Part shown: positions 2,194 through 50,418 of the stretch, in pieces | Numbering within the stretch: the first letter of the stretch is position 1 | How the letters are laid out: the number at the start of each line of letters is the position of its first letter | Assembly: GCF_038632915.1 (NCBI RefSeq) | Contig: NZ_CP152050.1 | Coordinates: forward strand, 3,409,501-3,473,500 | Source: Paenisporosarcina sp. FSL H8-0542 | GTDB lineage: Bacteria; Bacillota; Bacilli; Bacillales_A; Planococcaceae | Reading direction: 5' to 3' | Length of the DNA: 64,000 nucleotides | Translations under genes and position numbers: made by a program | Notes under the pieces: generated by a model | What the model saw: only the letters and a program-made list of their open reading frames with translations | The model's database searches: none | What the model was told of the DNA's origin: nothing

Positions 2194-2362
2194 AGAACAC
2201 CCTACTTTTCTCTTTATTTGTACTTCTTATTATATGATATGAGTGGAAATTCTAGGTATTTCGCAAGAAAAAAATGCATTTTCCCATTTTTCAGACCGTT
2301 ATCGCTTTTTTTACTAGAGTGAGACATATTATGGGCAACCCTGTATAACTTGAAAAATAGGC

Positions 2363-2446
2363 TATTCGCGGTTTTTCTGGTTGTATTCGCGTTTCCAGCC
2401 GGTCTATTCACGCTTTTGACACTTCTATTCGCAGCCCCATACAAAA
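2363..2446. repeat. 21-bp tandem array, locus A (4 units)
   Basis: The motif TATTC followed by GC, AC or GC-rich bases begins at 2363, 2384, 2405 and 2426, exactly 21 bp apart. The rest of each unit is poorly conserved, usually with a T-rich block in the middle. Further decayed units may reach left to about 2290. The array abuts the T-run of the Spo0E-gene terminator at 2443. A 76-codon open frame over it (2214-2444, minus) is judged spurious. See findings for the family. Confidence 0.75.
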
Positions 2447-2484
2447 AAAAGCGAAGCGAAGTGACATGATCACCTTGCTTCGCA
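2443..2484 (-). terminator. Intrinsic terminator of the Spo0E-like gene
   Basis: A GC-containing stem of about 14 bp (from 2451 to 2484, built from GCGAAGC-type arms) is followed on the minus strand by a run of eight T (2443-2450). It lies just beyond the Spo0E-like stop codon. Confidence 0.85.
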
Positions 2485-2998: not shown

Positions 2999-4933
2999 TT
3001 ACTCCTCATCCTCGAGACTTAACCCTTTAACATGCTTGCGATTGAGCTGCTTCTTCACTTTCCGATAATTTTTGGATTTGAAAATGATATCGTAATCATA
3101 GTTTTCAGGATACAGTTCACTTCCTTTAATGTGAAGCTGCAATCTTTTATGGTTAAAGGCTTTCTTTTCGCCTTTCACTTGCACGATGTAATTCCCATTG
3201 CTGTCAGGTCCTTTATATACAATCCCCGTCTCATTCGCAGCGGGTATCGTGACATTGTCTCCTTGTTCAAACTGCGCTACCTTTTCTTCAATGGCTTCCT
3301 TATTTTGTCGAGTTTTTCTGGCGTATTTATTTGTCGTGATTTGCTGCACATAATGAAGGTCCTTCAAATCAGCCTCGCTTGCATCATGAGGATATGTCTG
3401 CTCTCCTTTATACGATATGTCGTGTGCTTTTCTGATTAACTGCGGGTGCAATCCAAGCTTCAATGCAATATCAAACGCCTGACTTTTCCCGCTTTCCCCC
3501 AATAACAAACGATACGTTGGTCGCAGTGTCTCGAGATTGAACTCCATCGAGCCATTCACAAACCCTTCTTTCCGATCGGCAAAATCTTTCATTTCACTGT
3601 AATGGGTCGTTGCAAAGAGTGTTGCTCCTTTTTCAAACAATTGCTCCAAAATGACGATGGCCAACGCCATCCCTTCACTCGGATCCGTTCCAGAACCAAG
3701 CTCATCTAGCAGTACAAGTGATTGATTATCGGTTTTCTTTAAAATGTCGATAATGTTCAAAAGGCGTGAACTGAATGTGCTTAAATTCGCTTCGATGCTC
3801 TGGCCATCTCCTATATCCACATAGATTCGATGGAAAATGTGGAGTGAACTTCCCTTTTCCGCCGGAATGAACAAACCTGTTTGTGCCATCATGGTCAGCA
3901 GTCCGATGGTTTTTAGCGTGACGGTTTTCCCGCCAGTATTCGGACCCGTAATGACCAGTGCCCGATCTTTTTCTCCGAAATGGATGGATAAAGGAACTGC
4001 ATTCCCTTTCAGCATAGGGTGCCTCGCCCCATTCAAATGAATGATATAGTCCTCGTTCAACGTCGGACGTTCCCCATCAATGGAGACGCTGTACTTTGCT
4101 TTCGCAAAAATAATGTCATAATGATGCATCGTGTCCATAGCAATGTTGATTGCTAGTTCTTGTTCTAAGAATTTTTCGGTCAGTTCGTACAATATCTTCT
4201 CCACTTCATGCTCTTCTGAAATTCTCAAGTACTCGATCGATTCCTGCATTTCTTCCAGTTCTTTCGGCTCCATGAATAACGTTGCGCCTGATGCAGAGGA
4301 ATCAATAACAGTCCCTTTCACTTTAGTTCGGTATTCCCTTTTGACGGCAAACACATAACGACCATTTCTTTCGGAAACCATCGCTTCCTGCAAAAACTGC
4401 GCAAACGTTTTTGACTTCACCATCGTTTGTGCTCGTTCCTTCACCTTAGCCAGTTGCATGGATAACTGTCTTCGAACAGTTGAAAGTTCTTTCGTAGCAT
4501 AATCGTCTACTTGACCGTGTCTCAAGCAGCGCGTCAGTTCAGCTTCCAACTCATTTAAATCCCCTATTGATTCCGCATACAAATGTATAGTAGGTGCTGC
4601 GTACTGTTTATCTTTCATAAAGCGCTTCAGTTTATTACAGTGATCCAGGAAAGAAAGGACACGGGTAAATTGATCAGCCCGAATGTACAATCCTTTCTTT
4701 GCCTGTTCGATGTATTGCTCCATATCACTTAATGTATGAATCGGCACACTGGCACTAATTTTCATAATTTGCAGTGCTTCATGCACCTCACCTAATCCAT
4801 GTTCAATACTTTTCTTATTCGTGGTCGGTCGCAATCCCTCGATTGAGTTCTTCGCCCGCTCCGTAATCGCAAAGCTCCCTACTTCCTGTAAAATTTCTTG
4901 ATATCCCAATACATCAATTGTTTGTTGATTCAT
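2999..4933 (-). CDS. MutS2-like DNA-binding ATPase without Smr domain
   Basis: 644 residues. The N-terminal half is a helical core and clamp (to about residue 280, including the KREYRTKVKGTVIDSSASGA segment typical of MutS2). An ABC-type ATPase follows, with Walker A GPNTGGKT (330-337), Walker B LVLLDELGSGTDP (406-418) and the His-loop motif ATTHYSE (441-447). True MutS2 is about 780 residues and ends in an Smr endonuclease domain. Here the protein stops after a KOW-like region and a basic tail. It is therefore a MutS2 paralogue, likely to bind branched DNA or stalled structures but without the Smr nuclease. ATG preceded by GGGAGG. Single-gene unit. Confidence 0.85.
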   Translation of the reverse strand: MNQQTIDVLGYQEILQEVGSFAITERAKNSIEGLRPTTNKKSIEHGLGEVHEALQIMKISASVPIHTLSDMEQYIEQAKKGLYIRADQFTRVLSFLDHCNKLKRFMKDKQYAAPTIHLYAESIGDLNELEAELTRCLRHGQVDDYATKELSTVRRQLSMQLAKVKERAQTMVKSKTFAQFLQEAMVSERNGRYVFAVKREYRTKVKGTVIDSSASGATLFMEPKELEEMQESIEYLRISEEHEVEKILYELTEKFLEQELAINIAMDTMHHYDIIFAKAKYSVSIDGERPTLNEDYIIHLNGARHPMLKGNAVPLSIHFGEKDRALVITGPNTGGKTVTLKTIGLLTMMAQTGLFIPAEKGSSLHIFHRIYVDIGDGQSIEANLSTFSSRLLNIIDILKKTDNQSLVLLDELGSGTDPSEGMALAIVILEQLFEKGATLFATTHYSEMKDFADRKEGFVNGSMEFNLETLRPTYRLLLGESGKSQAFDIALKLGLHPQLIRKAHDISYKGEQTYPHDASEADLKDLHYVQQITTNKYARKTRQNKEAIEEKVAQFEQGDNVTIPAANETGIVYKGPDSNGNYIVQVKGEKKAFNHKRLQLHIKGSELYPENYDYDIIFKSKNYRKVKKQLNRKHVKGLSLEDEE

Positions 4934-15706: not shown

Positions 15707-15769
15707 ATTTGTGCAACCTGGAATGGGATTCTGTCTACCTGGATCGCAATTCTGTCTACCTTGACATCT
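15707..15769. repeat. 21-bp tandem array, locus B (3 units)
   Basis: Units begin at 15707, 15728 and 15749 with ATTTGTGCAACCTGG, ATTCTGTCTACCTGG and ATTCTGTCTACCTTG. Spacing is exactly 21 bp, and the six bases after each of these blocks are not conserved. The array lies between the nuclease gene stop and the hairpin at 15797-15835. Confidence 0.7.
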
Positions 15770-29679: not shown

Positions 29680-29922
29680 CCTGGAATTCCCCCTTCAAAA
29701 CTGAATGATGTTATATGCATATTTTACCTATAAATTCCATAAGAATCACATTTATTCCTTCTTTACTTAAACACGTCAAATATGAAAACCGTATACTTCT
29801 GGGTCTCACGCTTCTCGCTCTGCGGCTTGCTAGTCGCAAATGTACTCTCTCGTTTTTCATTAAATATCACCGTTTTGATTTAAATCACTTTTTATTAGTG
29901 GGAAATTAGGAGGGAAATGGTT

Positions 29923-29985
29923 AGTTGCCCCAGTTACATGAAAAGTTGCCCCAATCAAGCCAATAGTTGCCCCAGTCAGCAAGAA
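29923..29985. repeat. 21-bp tandem array, locus C (3 units)
   Basis: AGTTGCCCCA begins at 29923, 29944 and 29965, exactly 21 bp apart. The remaining 11 bases of each unit vary. The array ends at the T-run of the thioesterase-gene terminator. The 240 bases to its left (29680-29922) show no gene. Confidence 0.85.
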
Positions 29986-30015
29986 AAAAAAGCGGCAGCC
30001 TGTAAGCCACCGCTT
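29984..30015 (-). terminator. Intrinsic terminator of the thioesterase gene
   Basis: AGCGGCAGC (29991-29999) pairs with GCCACCGCT (30006-30014), one mismatch, with seven T following on the minus strand. Confidence 0.8.
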
Positions 30016-30020
30016 TCTTT

Positions 30021-34700: not shown

Positions 34701-34857
34701 GTCTAGCTTCCAGCGCCAGCTCGCACTTAAGCTTAGGGCCACAGGATGTGGGTCATGAAAGCGTGGCGACAGGACGTCGCGTTCTTAGCTTTCCCTCCTG
34801 CCTCAGGCGAAAGCAATGCTTTCGCATCGGTTCTTCCAGCGCCAGTGTCGAGCTAGA
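34701..34857. repeat. Dispersed intergenic repeat inside the dpp-ykf operon (157 bp)
   Basis: The element is bounded by TCTAGCT (34702-34708) and AGCTAGA (34851-34857). CCAGCGCCAG occurs near both ends in direct orientation. Inside are the hairpin GCGAC-AGGAC-GTCGC and a second one GAAAGC-AAT-GCTTTC. From memory the core (GGGCCACAGGATGTGGGTCAT ... split here by position 34737-34756) closely resembles a high-copy intergenic repeat seen in many Bacillales genomes. GC content is higher than in flanking DNA. Confidence 0.7.
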
Positions 34858-40854: not shown

Positions 40855-41104
40855 GAAAAATCGATGACAAAGAATAGTAGCACAAGTACGTCTTCATAGA
40901 GAGTCAGCGGCTGGTGGAAGCTGATAGGCAACTTGGTGTGAATGGTCTTTGGAGAGTTTCCCAGAATGTCAGTACGGGAAAACGTGTGATCTACGTTACA
41001 GGTCCTAAAGCGAAAGCCGTTATTGGCTTTTAATTTGAGGTGGCACCGCGGTCATTCCGTCCTCTGTACATGAACTCTTCTGTTCATGTACAGGGGATTT
41101 TTTT
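40855..41104 (+). ncRNA. T-box leader, tryptophan-specific, controlling trpEGDCFBA
   Basis: The leader shows the Stem I AGTA turn (GAATAGTAGC), the distal-loop block GAGAGTCAGCGGCTGGTGG, and the T-box AGGTGGCACCGCGG (41038-41051). A terminator stem of about 15 bp (41060-41096) with seven T (41098-41104) follows. The specifier is read as TGG at 40943-40945, in context GAA-TGG-TC, that is tryptophan. Uncharged tRNA-Trp would stabilise the antiterminator and open the operon. An extra 80 bases of leader lie between the promoter and the T-box proper. Confidence 0.9.
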
Positions 41105-47570: not shown

Positions 47571-47640
47571 AGGAGAGAGTTGGGGGAAACGGAATAAATA
47601 CTAGTTGAGGCCGAATAAAACTCGTGCGTTACAGTTTAAA
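47571..47640. repeat. 21-bp tandem array, locus E (2 clear units)
   Basis: GAATAAA begins at 47592 and 47613, exactly 21 bp apart. Decayed neighbours may begin at 47571 and 47634. The array follows the trp terminator directly. This is the weakest member of the family. Confidence 0.45.
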
Positions 47641-48201: not shown

Positions 48202-48415
48202 AAATTCACTTTTACGTAATTGAAAATTACATTTTGACGATCAGTACAGCAAAGTTATAACGTTGTTTTAACATAGAAAAATCTTTCTCATGATGTGATT
48301 TTATTGCCCGATTCCTGTTTATTGGATTTGGTTATTTCGATTGGTTGCACGGGCTTCTGGAAATAAAAATATCAACTATTATTAAACGAATAAATGTTAT
48401 CACTGGCACCTTTGT

Positions 48416-48613
48416 CTATTTTCCAGCTATCCTTTGTGCATCTTGTTCAGCATTTATTTTCATGAGCTCGTTTGCAAATATTGAAATACCTGTTGCAATT
48501 AATCCTACTGCCAACCATCGAATACCAATTGGTTCCATAAAAGTATTAAAATAAGTCAACGTCAATATAAGGCACCCGAACAATAAAAACAGTGTTGCGA
48601 TTAAACTATTCAT
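48416..48613 (-). CDS. Small membrane protein (65 aa)
   Basis: 65 residues with two transmembrane helices (LIATLFLLFGCLILTLTYF and IRWLAVGLIATGISIFANEL) and a short polar tail (KINAEQDAQRIAGK). The ATG follows GAGGTGAAAG. No family recognised. The 214 bases downstream to 48202 hold a small hairpin but no gene. Confidence 0.65.
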   Translation of the reverse strand: MNSLIATLFLLFGCLILTLTYFNTFMEPIGIRWLAVGLIATGISIFANELMKINAEQDAQRIAGK

Positions 48614-48759
48614 CTTTCTTTCACCTCGCTCTAATTAGTAATACTCACACCGATAAAACTACATTCAATCATTCAAGTTTAATTTAACTAATTCTCTTTT
48701 ATTCCCGTTACTCCTTCTCCTTTAATAAAACAGGAATGGTGATGTGTCTTTCTGAAGAA

Positions 48760-48906
48760 GAATCGTGTCCATTCCACAGCGAATGGTCAGAAACTGAGAT
48801 TGAGTGGACGAAAAACCATTTTGAATGGACAAAAACCTTGATTGAGTTGTCATAAAACCAAATTGAATGGACGAAAACCCACAGCGAATGGTCAGAAAAA
48901 AAGCAA
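48760..48906. repeat. 21-bp tandem array, locus D (7 units)
   Basis: Units start with GAATGG, GAGTGG, GAGTTG or GAATCG at 48760, 48781, 48802, 48823, 48844, 48865 and 48886, all exactly 21 bp apart. Most carry a GxC then an A-run near position 12-17. The second and last units share a 19-base identical block (48775-48793 and 48880-48898). The array runs straight into the terminator of the aldehyde dehydrogenase gene. Read on the minus strand it gives heptads such as FVHSIWF and SDHSLWV, but no binding site or start supports a protein. Confidence 0.92.
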
Positions 48907-48935
48907 CCCAATTGAGCTTTACAATTGGGTTGCTT
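48896..48935 (-). terminator. Intrinsic terminator of the aldehyde dehydrogenase gene
   Basis: Perfect 13-bp stem (48901-48913 with 48923-48935), followed on the minus strand by seven T that belong to the first bases of the 21-bp array. Confidence 0.9.
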
Positions 48936-48943
48936 CGTCACTT

Positions 48944-50371
48944 CTAAAATACGGTTTTCATCGTAATAAATTTCAGTTCGGTCATTTCATCGACGGCAAA
49001 CTTAATGCCTTCACGCCCATATCCACTCATCTTGATGCCACCATACGGCATGTTGTCTGTACGGAAAGTAGGAATGTCGTTTATGATGACGGCTCCCGCT
49101 TCAATTTCATCTGCGGCCTTCATAGCATCCGTTAAGACATTGGTGTAAATCGCTGCATTCAATCCAAATTGTGAAGCATTCACCCACTCAATTGCTTCAT
49201 CCAGTGTATCGTAAGGAATGACGGAAACAATGGGTGCAAAGACTTCCTCACATACAACTTTCATGTCTTCTTTAGCACCTGTCAAAATAGTTGGATGCAA
49301 CTGACGCTCTGTAAATTCGCCACCTGTGGCAACAGTTGCTCCTTGCGATTTGGCTTCTTCAATCCAGCCGACGATGCGTTTTACTTCGTCCGGATGGATC
49401 ATGGAACCTATATCGGTTTGTTCATCCAGTGGATCACCCACTATTAATTTTTTCGTTTCTTCCACGAATCCTTGCACGAATTCATCGTACACTTCGCGGT
49501 TTACGTAAATGCGTTGTAAAGAAATACATACTTGTCCTGAAAAGCTGAATGCCCCTTCCGCACAACGTTTAACAATTTTTTCGATTGGCACACTTGGCTC
49601 CACAATCAAGGCTGCGTTTGAACCCAGCTCAAGCGTAATTTTGCGTAGACCTACTTTTTCTTTAATTTTCAATCCGACAGGAACACTTCCGGTAAATGTC
49701 ACTTTTTTGACCGCTGGATGTGTAATGAGTGAGTCACTTAAATCACTCCCGCTCCCTGTTATAATTTGAAGGGCACCATCCGGCAAACCAGCTTCCTTGA
49801 AAATATCAGCCATAACCAATGCACTCAATGGTGTTTGTGTTGCCGGCTTTAAGACTACCGTATTTCCAACTGCAAAAGCAGGTCCCAGTTTATGCGCCAC
49901 TAAATTGAATGGGAAATTAAAGGGCGTGATTGCCGCAACAACGCCGATAGCCTCTTTTTTTGTCCATCCGATTCGGTTCGCACCTCCAGGGGCAGCATCC
50001 ATCGGAATGGTTTCCCCACGGTACTGCTTCGCTTCTTCTGCAGCAAATTGATAGGTCGCAATCGTGCGATCTACTTCACCACGTGCCGTTTTCAACGGTT
50101 TTCCCGCTTCTTGTGCCAATGTCATTGCGAGTTCTTCTTTACGCTCTCGCATAATGTTGACCACTTTATATAAAATTTCTGCCCGATCATATGCCGTCCA
50201 TTTTTTGAAGGAATGAAAAGCCTGTTCGGCACCAGCAATTGCTACTTTCACATCATCCGGTGATCCCTTTGCCACTTTTGCAAGTAATTTTCCATCATAG
50301 GGAGCTTTCAAATCATATGTTTCACTTGCTTCGCGCCAATCTCCATTAATCCAAAGTCCGGTTTCTTTCAA
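48944..50371 (-). CDS. NAD(P)-dependent aldehyde dehydrogenase
   Basis: 475 residues. Cofactor segment AITPFNFPFNLVAHKLGPA and VVLKPATQTPLSA, FTGSVPVGLKIKEK, general base in TLELGSNAALIV (Glu), catalytic Cys in FSFSGQVCISLQRIYV, and late EEVFAPIVSVIPY. Features fit the lactaldehyde/succinate-semialdehyde/glyceraldehyde-3-phosphate branch; the aldehyde cannot be named. Start chosen at TTG 50371 right after AGGAGGTG; the ATG at 50404 lies upstream of that site. Single gene ended by a terminator that runs into the 21-bp array. Confidence 0.9.
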   Translation of the reverse strand: MKETGLWINGDWREASETYDLKAPYDGKLLAKVAKGSPDDVKVAIAGAEQAFHSFKKWTAYDRAEILYKVVNIMRERKEELAMTLAQEAGKPLKTARGEVDRTIATYQFAAEEAKQYRGETIPMDAAPGGANRIGWTKKEAIGVVAAITPFNFPFNLVAHKLGPAFAVGNTVVLKPATQTPLSALVMADIFKEAGLPDGALQIITGSGSDLSDSLITHPAVKKVTFTGSVPVGLKIKEKVGLRKITLELGSNAALIVEPSVPIEKIVKRCAEGAFSFSGQVCISLQRIYVNREVYDEFVQGFVEETKKLIVGDPLDEQTDIGSMIHPDEVKRIVGWIEEAKSQGATVATGGEFTERQLHPTILTGAKEDMKVVCEEVFAPIVSVIPYDTLDEAIEWVNASQFGLNAAIYTNVLTDAMKAADEIEAGAVIINDIPTFRTDNMPYGGIKMSGYGREGIKFAVDEMTELKFITMKTVF

Positions 50372-50418
50372 AAGAAACACCTCCTGAGGTTGATATATAT
50401 ACATTCGTCATTATTCTA

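Follow-up and report, generated by a model that had tools for sequence, protein, structure and literature searches.

Non-coding arrays of 21-bp units behind genes of Paenisporosarcina and its family, probably dispersed motif-spacer elements with a STAR-like plan

What kind of element is the run of 21-bp units that reaches into the terminator of an aldehyde dehydrogenase gene in Paenisporosarcina sp. FSL H8-0542, and does it belong to something that recurs elsewhere? The stretch of DNA analyzed here (the window, 64,000 nt) comprises bases 3409501-3473500 of a single-contig genome of 3.63 Mb. The nearest named relative in our scan was Paenisporosarcina sp. HGH0030 with 98.7-99.7% identity over long aligned pieces, followed by P. 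quisquiliarum SK 55 with 82-90% identity. The initial annotation of the window had described seven units of exactly 21 bp, starting at position 48760 and running directly into the terminator. The locus has the following features:

48760..48780, plus strand: opening 21 bp of the 48.8-kb array, with an inverted core and a possible start signature CGTGTYC...CGAATGG (tentative)
48781..48906, plus strand: six direct 21-bp units, each with core GARTGGACRAAAACC and about 6 free bases
48900..48936, minus strand: intrinsic terminator of the aldehyde dehydrogenase gene, into which the array runs
48944-50404, minus strand: aldehyde dehydrogenase gene (PF00171)

Location and period were as described, and the minus-strand terminator does overlap the end of the array. 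The number of direct units is six. The units in 48781-48906 agreed with GAATGGACAAAAACCAAGATT at 14-19 of 21 positions, the first 21 bp at only 9 of 21, and these harbor the inverted core TGTCCATTC at 48766-48774. Positions 48760-48780 are more aptly taken for the array's start than counted as a unit. The best lag-21 segment in the region 48202-48943 had a score of 25; 2000 first-order Markov resamples of this region gave a mean of 5.8 and a largest value of 15. With its six units the array belongs to the GARTGGACRAAAAC family, and it is set against the aldehyde dehydrogenase terminator.

A lag scan for segments matching themselves at a fixed lag (lags 12-60, with a score threshold) returned four segments at lag 21 and one at lag 42 from the whole window, the latter being the same array at double step, and no other lag exceeded the threshold. 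Further features in the window are listed below; the coordinates of the two hairpins were obtained by reading of the sequence.

2362..2432, minus strand: four CGAATAGA-type cores in 21-bp steps, downstream of a same-strand terminator
2451..2483, minus strand: terminator-like hairpin, some 19 bp ahead of the 2.4-kb array
15707..15715, plus strand: start signature ATTTGTGCA of the ACCTGG family (15.7-kb array)
15716..15763, plus strand: two full units and one partial unit ACCTGGANNNCNAWWCTGTCT, above the lag-scan threshold
29902..29922, plus strand: leader GAAATTAGGAGGGAAATGGTT, the start signature of the AGTTGCCCC family (29.9-kb array)
29923..29985, plus strand: three 21-bp units AGTTGCCCCNNTNNNNNNNAA, above the lag-scan threshold
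29988..30016, minus strand: terminator-like hairpin beside the 29.9-kb array
47590..47631, plus strand: decayed two-unit array (CGAATAAA), with five units at the orthologous place in L033
58093..58143, plus strand: weak 21-bp array, lowest score among the four lag-21 segments

Besides the 48.8-kb array, 21-bp arrays of unrelated unit sequence had been noticed at four other places. Those at 29.9 and 15.7 kb exceeded the threshold, whereas those at 2.4 and 47.6 kb did not; the 2.4-kb array is nevertheless a member of the genome-wide CGAATAGA family. The units do differ between places, but the cores at 2.4, 15.7, 29.9 and 48.8 kb recur at other loci.

The excess of 21-bp periodicity expected for other intergenic regions was found. 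In a sample of the window's own genome (40 evenly spaced stretches and the window, 864 kb), 12 intergenic matches were at lag 21 and 4 at lag 20, compared to 8 for the 44 lags outside 20, 21, 40, 41 and 42 combined. Ten sets from the same family (383 kb intergenic) gave 37 matches at lag 21, which include orthologs (Bhargavaea L039-L041), and 9 at lag 20, one of which (L205) is a TGAAC microsatellite. Lag 21 was the commonest lag, alone or tied, in nine of these sets; the G008 set had no match. Single stretches from 20 Bacilli genomes of other families, 390 kb in total with 89 kb of intergenic DNA, gave no match at lag 20 or 21, where 8.6 lag-21 matches were expected in the intergenic DNA. Since these comparison stretches were few and 18 of the 20 were at contig starts, absence of the arrays outside the family is only likely. 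Chance or ordinary low-complexity sequence could be invoked for the cases at 47.6 and 58.1 kb, which are weak on their own; for the main arrays it is refuted by the lag scan together with the recurrence of the families, and as a general explanation it is hardly credible.

The arrays have a fixed spacing of 20 or 21 bp, comprise several core families per genome and show start signatures that recur at unrelated loci. A unit consists of a core of about 9-15 fixed bp and 6-8 nearly random bases, and loci within one family have the core in common while the free bases are different. Three families were counted as follows:

AGTTGCCCCWAT-(6)-AAA family: 19 arrays, 72 units
CGAATAGAA-(7)-AANCG family: 15 arrays, 38 units
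TGGACRAAAAC-(6-7)-GA family: 6 arrays, 24 units

All of the 152 spacings in four families (recorded up to 45, within arrays having at least one spacing of 20, 21, 22 or 42) were 21 (123), 20 (15), or 40 or 42 (14). Pairs of AGTTGCCCC cores were present in 5 of 151 genomes and were exactly 21 bp apart in 55 of 55 cases, with 11-39 allowed. In class-level genomes this pair pattern had two single matches with 16- and 18-bp steps, which look like chance. An exception to the strict spacing was seen behind a NUDIX gene in G047, where degraded cores are 20 and 19 bp apart. Solitary cores were few in the one family tested: 15 of 20 GGGGCAACTNY sites were within 6 arrays, and the remaining 5 equal the number of matches for the reversed control (5).

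The leader GAATTAGGAGNNAATTGGTT or a close variant preceded 16 of the 18 AGTTGCCCC arrays inspected; L093 had none within the 70 bp inspected and L115 a degraded form. By pattern search the same leader was also found before AGTTGC arrays with other core tails, and this leader of the 21-bp AGTTGCCCC units also precedes the 20-bp units of the AGTTGCAACSAAA family in G082. ATTTTGTRCA was present before 18 of the 20 ACCTGG arrays inspected, with a shorter or changed form at the other two, one of which is the array in the window. Five of 9 genus genomes contained the pattern of ACCTGG signature plus unit, 48 times in all, and the reversed control had no match; this pattern, with two mismatches allowed, demanded TGTNCA, so ACCTGG arrays without TGTNCA would be missed. 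The 48.8-kb array and its orthologs L031 and L032 have GAATCRTGT with CGAATGG, which L285 also has at an unrelated locus, and looser versions were seen in L014 and L055; CGTGTYC...CGAATGG describes all of these. This start was not seen before the arrays of the same family in L003, L005 and L029, and we therefore regard it as tentative. None was recognized for CGAATAGA arrays.

A unit of 21 nt corresponds to seven codons, and the AGTTGC leader looks like a ribosome-binding site followed by a start codon: AGGAG stands before a TTG or ATG whose frame contains SCPxxxK repeats. We entertained short genes for peptides with seven-residue repeats for this reason and rejected them, as stops occur in frame and sister units of 20 bp exist. 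Stops are not avoided in the best frame of AGTTGCCCC (3 versus 4.8 expected). The GARTGGAC family has no open frame, the only CGAATAGA frame below 2% of controls holds 42 stops, and the fourth direct unit of the 48.8-kb array contains a stop as judged by reading. The 20-bp units of the sister family with the same leader break the frame. Coding repeats are thus very improbable.

A search for a motif common to all families (12 restarts each) gave a score of 6.17 for 34 arrays versus at most 5.67 in controls, above 60 of 60. When one array per visible family was kept (24 kept, 10 dropped), 1 of 60 controls reached the real value of 6.47, with a control mean of 5.96, and the unstable consensus shifted. 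For these two reasons the evidence for such a motif is treated as weak.

The arrays are located at the 3' ends of genes. Both neighbors were known for 54 of the 63 family arrays; the two genes were divergent in 1 case, convergent in 20 and tandem in 33. Without use of a core pattern 42 arrays were found, for which the corresponding numbers were 4, 15 and 23, one of the divergent cases being the microsatellite L205; a cruder gene calling with 39 arrays (12 convergent, 21 tandem, 4 divergent, 2 at edges) is superseded. The length-weighted expectation is 19% divergent, 15% convergent and 66% tandem. Convergent regions were in excess for the family arrays (p 7e-5) and for the 42 arrays found without a core pattern (p 9e-4). 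The deficit in divergent regions had a p of 3e-4 for the family arrays and was not significant for the 42 (0.17). Since orthologs are among the family arrays, these and the array pairs are not all independent. The recurring position claimed in the initial annotation was in this way confirmed for gene ends, with 1 of 54 family arrays between divergent genes.

The association with terminators was confirmed only in part. Within their own intergenic region the 42 arrays had a mean rank of 0.585 with 0.5 expected, a value biased upward because random placements may overlap terminators, and closeness was not below chance. Fifteen of the 42 were within 40 bp of a terminator. Such closeness is mostly explained by the position of the arrays at gene 3' ends. 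The CGAATAGA family did show an association: a same-strand terminator was present 19-65 bp upstream in 13 of 15 arrays (two ortholog pairs among them) versus 94 of 602 places chosen at random downstream of a sense gene (16%, terminator at 15-70 bp). For AGTTGC arrays this was the case in 3 of 20. In tandem settings all 12 CGAATAGA arrays were sense, while AGTTGC arrays were 6 sense and 5 antisense and ACCTGG arrays 6 sense and 2 antisense. Three genes, those for thiamine phosphate synthase and a NUDIX protein and a gene in L120, have the leader overlying the stop codon.

Such positions are compatible with functional phased binding sites, at which a protein on cores every two turns would stop read-through or converging transcription or organize the chromosome. 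Protein-bound stops of transcription have a parallel in the Sal boxes of TTF-I. The strict two-turn spacing across unlike cores, the divergent deficit and convergent excess, and the orientation and terminator association of the CGAATAGA arrays are in favor of this explanation. However, AGTTGC arrays keep neither to one side of terminators nor to one orientation, and the all-family motif is weak. As described below, close species differ at the same gene, and cores are no better conserved than flanks. We consider functional binding sites unlikely as the main explanation.

Between strains, whole units are gained and lost and the spacers change faster than the flanks. The array region of the 48.8-kb locus differed between the window and HGH0030 at 6 of about 126 positions, compared to 0 of about 170 flanking positions, and the array of P. 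quisquiliarum comprises three units, that of the window six. The initial annotation had suggested a comparison of unit number between strains. Among 12 same-species array pairs, four showed a difference of 21 or 42 bp, equal to one or two whole units, and one more had a gap of 18 bp. In one orthologous array of three genomes the unit sets were X1X2X3X5, X1X3X4X5 and X2X3X4X5. Substitutions in the 12 pairs amounted to 21/230 (9.1%) in spacers, 12/461 (2.6%) in cores and 74/3308 (2.2%) in flanks, which include some coding sequence. The difference between spacer and flank was significant (p 4e-7), although part of the spacer excess stems from units that are not true counterparts (AGTTGC pairs). 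The gapless pair L248/L259 had 7/21 differences in the spacer, 0/42 in the core and 15/280 in the flank (p 2.5e-4). Spacers differed in 7 of the 12 pairs, and 5 were without spacer difference in the aligned units. Cores were no better conserved than flanks (p 0.62), so selection on the core is unsupported. Exchange between units with common cores would give the fast change of spacers, and a mutator acting on spacers is another possibility.

Local amplification alone, a replication or repair process that duplicates 21-bp pieces beside gene ends with subsequent drift of the copies, was among the processes considered in the initial annotation. It accounts for strains that differ by whole units, and the five-unit array upstream of a trp-like operon in P. 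quisquiliarum (L032 18889-19000), of which the window has remnants only, would also fit. It does not account for the same core and the same start signature at many unrelated loci, and drift would not stay within fixed spacer columns. We regard it as improbable.

Comparison of orthologous gene ends argued for arrival of the arrays. In the window genome and in G011 the leader supplies the last codons and the stop (GIRR*) of the thiamine phosphate synthase gene (PF02581), and the orthologs in G047 and G072 have another gene end and no array within 330 bp. Behind the NUDIX gene (PF00293) a AGTTGCCCC array is present in the window genome, G011 and G030, and GAATGGAC-type cores with a GAATCGTGTC start in G047. 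In G061, G072, G082, G100 and G091 neither array type was seen within the 210 bp read. Different families at one place point to arrival and loss rather than to slow local growth. A defined far end, a clean insertion boundary or a target-site duplication was not found, and the far end is not conserved.

Five stretches from four arrays of the window, one array being taken on both strands, did not fold as RNA beyond the level of shuffles (z -1.06 to 0.84), and searches of the window and six loci against Rfam at gathering scores gave no family match at an array. Curvature of 33 arrays was slightly raised, with a mean percentile of 0.61 against column-permuted periodic controls and of 0.75 against shuffles. 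Strong bending is thus not supported, and the phased bending by A-tracts proposed in the initial annotation is suggested by the curvature model only weakly. The Y1 transposase (PF01797) had no match in the window genome (G000) and the same-species genome G011, both array-rich, and its presence in 5 of 9 genus genomes includes array-rich (G030, G082) and array-poor (G061, G100) ones alike. Given its absence from the window genome it is not supported as carrier, and this search for the Y1 transposase yielded no dispersing enzyme. BLASTN of the aldehyde dehydrogenase array against phages and plasmids, and of an AGTTGC array against plasmids, resulted in short matches, the best with E 0.01 to two Enterococcus phages. 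The two start-signature patterns had no match in viral contigs, and 12 contigs from the viral search with the GGGGCAACT pair pattern had no leader within 45 bp and contained long repeats or isolated pairs. A phage or plasmid origin was rejected, as no copy with leader was found in the phage, plasmid and viral collections.

The arrays are probably dispersed non-coding motif-spacer arrays with a STAR-like plan and a two-turn period of 21 bp, or 20 bp in some families. The element would consist of a start signature, recognized for two families and tentative for that of the 48.8-kb array, and mostly 2-7 units, each made up of fixed core and free spacer, and several arrays seem to be decayed at their far end. 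Copies would be carried by a trans-acting machine to gene ends, where harm is small, and the cores may be kept alike through exchange between units. The 21-bp period might be kept because a protein binds each core on the same face of the helix, and candidates for such a protein are the dispersing enzyme or a chromosome-binding protein. We tentatively propose, with some doubt, a more specific version: family-wide polar arrays with start signatures, a two-turn period and many core 'dialects' per genome, distinct from REP, CRISPR and STAR, would owe their place at gene 3' ends to an undescribed enzyme or protein able to read phased cores, and their diversity to unit exchange.

REP/BIME sequences are palindromic dispersed extragenic repeats that travel with the Y1 (RAYT) transposase. 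The arrays are likewise dispersed, extragenic and mostly behind genes, but the array stretches of the window show no folding beyond chance, and the window genome lacks PF01797. In the ends of Tn7-like elements direct transposase-binding sites of about 20 bp have fixed and free positions, as the units have; in an unsystematic look no paired ends or transposase were noticed in the array stretches read. CRISPR arrays have repeats and spacers of roughly 20-70 bp each, whereas the whole unit here is 20-21 bp with 6-8 free bases, which is below the unit size of CRISPR arrays.

The closest likeness in plan is to the STAR elements of Staphylococcus aureus, which are reported to have a 14-bp motif of one consensus with spacers of 40-44 bp and, as described for gapR, to carry a 'start signature' at one end (PMC3532100). 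They share with the arrays the intergenic fixed motif with spacers, the start signature, expanding and contracting loci, locus-specific spacers and different genomic places per species, and their function and dispersal were left open there (PMC3532100). STAR spacers are reported to be lineage-specific as well; the arrays have start signatures of other sequence, variable unit number and spacers that differ within a species in 7 of the 12 pairs. The STAR period is about 55 bp with one consensus, whereas the whole unit here has 20-21 bp and a genome contains several core families. The STAR motif T(G/A/T)TGTTG(G/T)GGCCC(C/A) had 1 match in the window at up to two mismatches, with 3.1 expected by chance, and no exact match in any of 289 loci searched. 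As motif and period differ and the STAR motif was not found, we call the arrays STAR-like in plan and not STAR elements.

TAACTGA direct repeats of Beggiatoaceae also form many intergenic sets with function left open, but they are a single seven-base sequence, which in the main genome mostly precedes start codons directly, in contrast to 21-bp units behind genes (PMC4679880). RemA of Bacillus reads weakly conserved direct repeats in helix phase; its binding regions have 7-bp protected stretches at 3-bp intervals in the promoter region and not 21-bp units behind genes (PMC8481266). The literature searched, with few subscription journals among it, brought up STAR elements and TAACTGA repeats but no description of such 21-bp arrays, which does not prove that none has been published.

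The two-turn phasing common to unlike cores points to an unnamed protein, and the arrays are a direct means to seek it. As they change faster than their flanks, the arrays could serve as strain markers. They also alter gene ends, for example the last codons of the thiamine phosphate synthase gene, and a comparison with them may help to explain STAR elements.

Some further observations were made. The longest array met was L200 7316-7621 (G010), with about 15 units of 21 bp and alternating unit types. In L120 1904-2830 (G082) a block of about 262 bp is repeated in tandem; every copy carries a terminator-like hairpin, the leader and, in most cases, 4-6 units of 20 bp, and leader matches at 174-343 bp steps suggest similar blocks on five other contigs of G082. 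A 20-bp family (TTTATAATAAAGTTTGATNA) is present in the window's own genome at L057 2024-2111 and L079 15981-16050. L159 has two near-identical arrays (1993-2053 and 4637-4693) with flanks in common, 2.6 kb apart. A reversed control pattern (AGATAAGC pairs) gave 28 matches in G012, perhaps another abundant array family. The window itself also contains a Bacillaceae-1 RNA (RF01690, 65 bits) at 34738-34804 on the minus strand and a T-box leader (RF00230, 133 bits) at 40855-41067 on the plus strand, before a gene with the anthranilate synthase component I domains PF04715 and PF00425.
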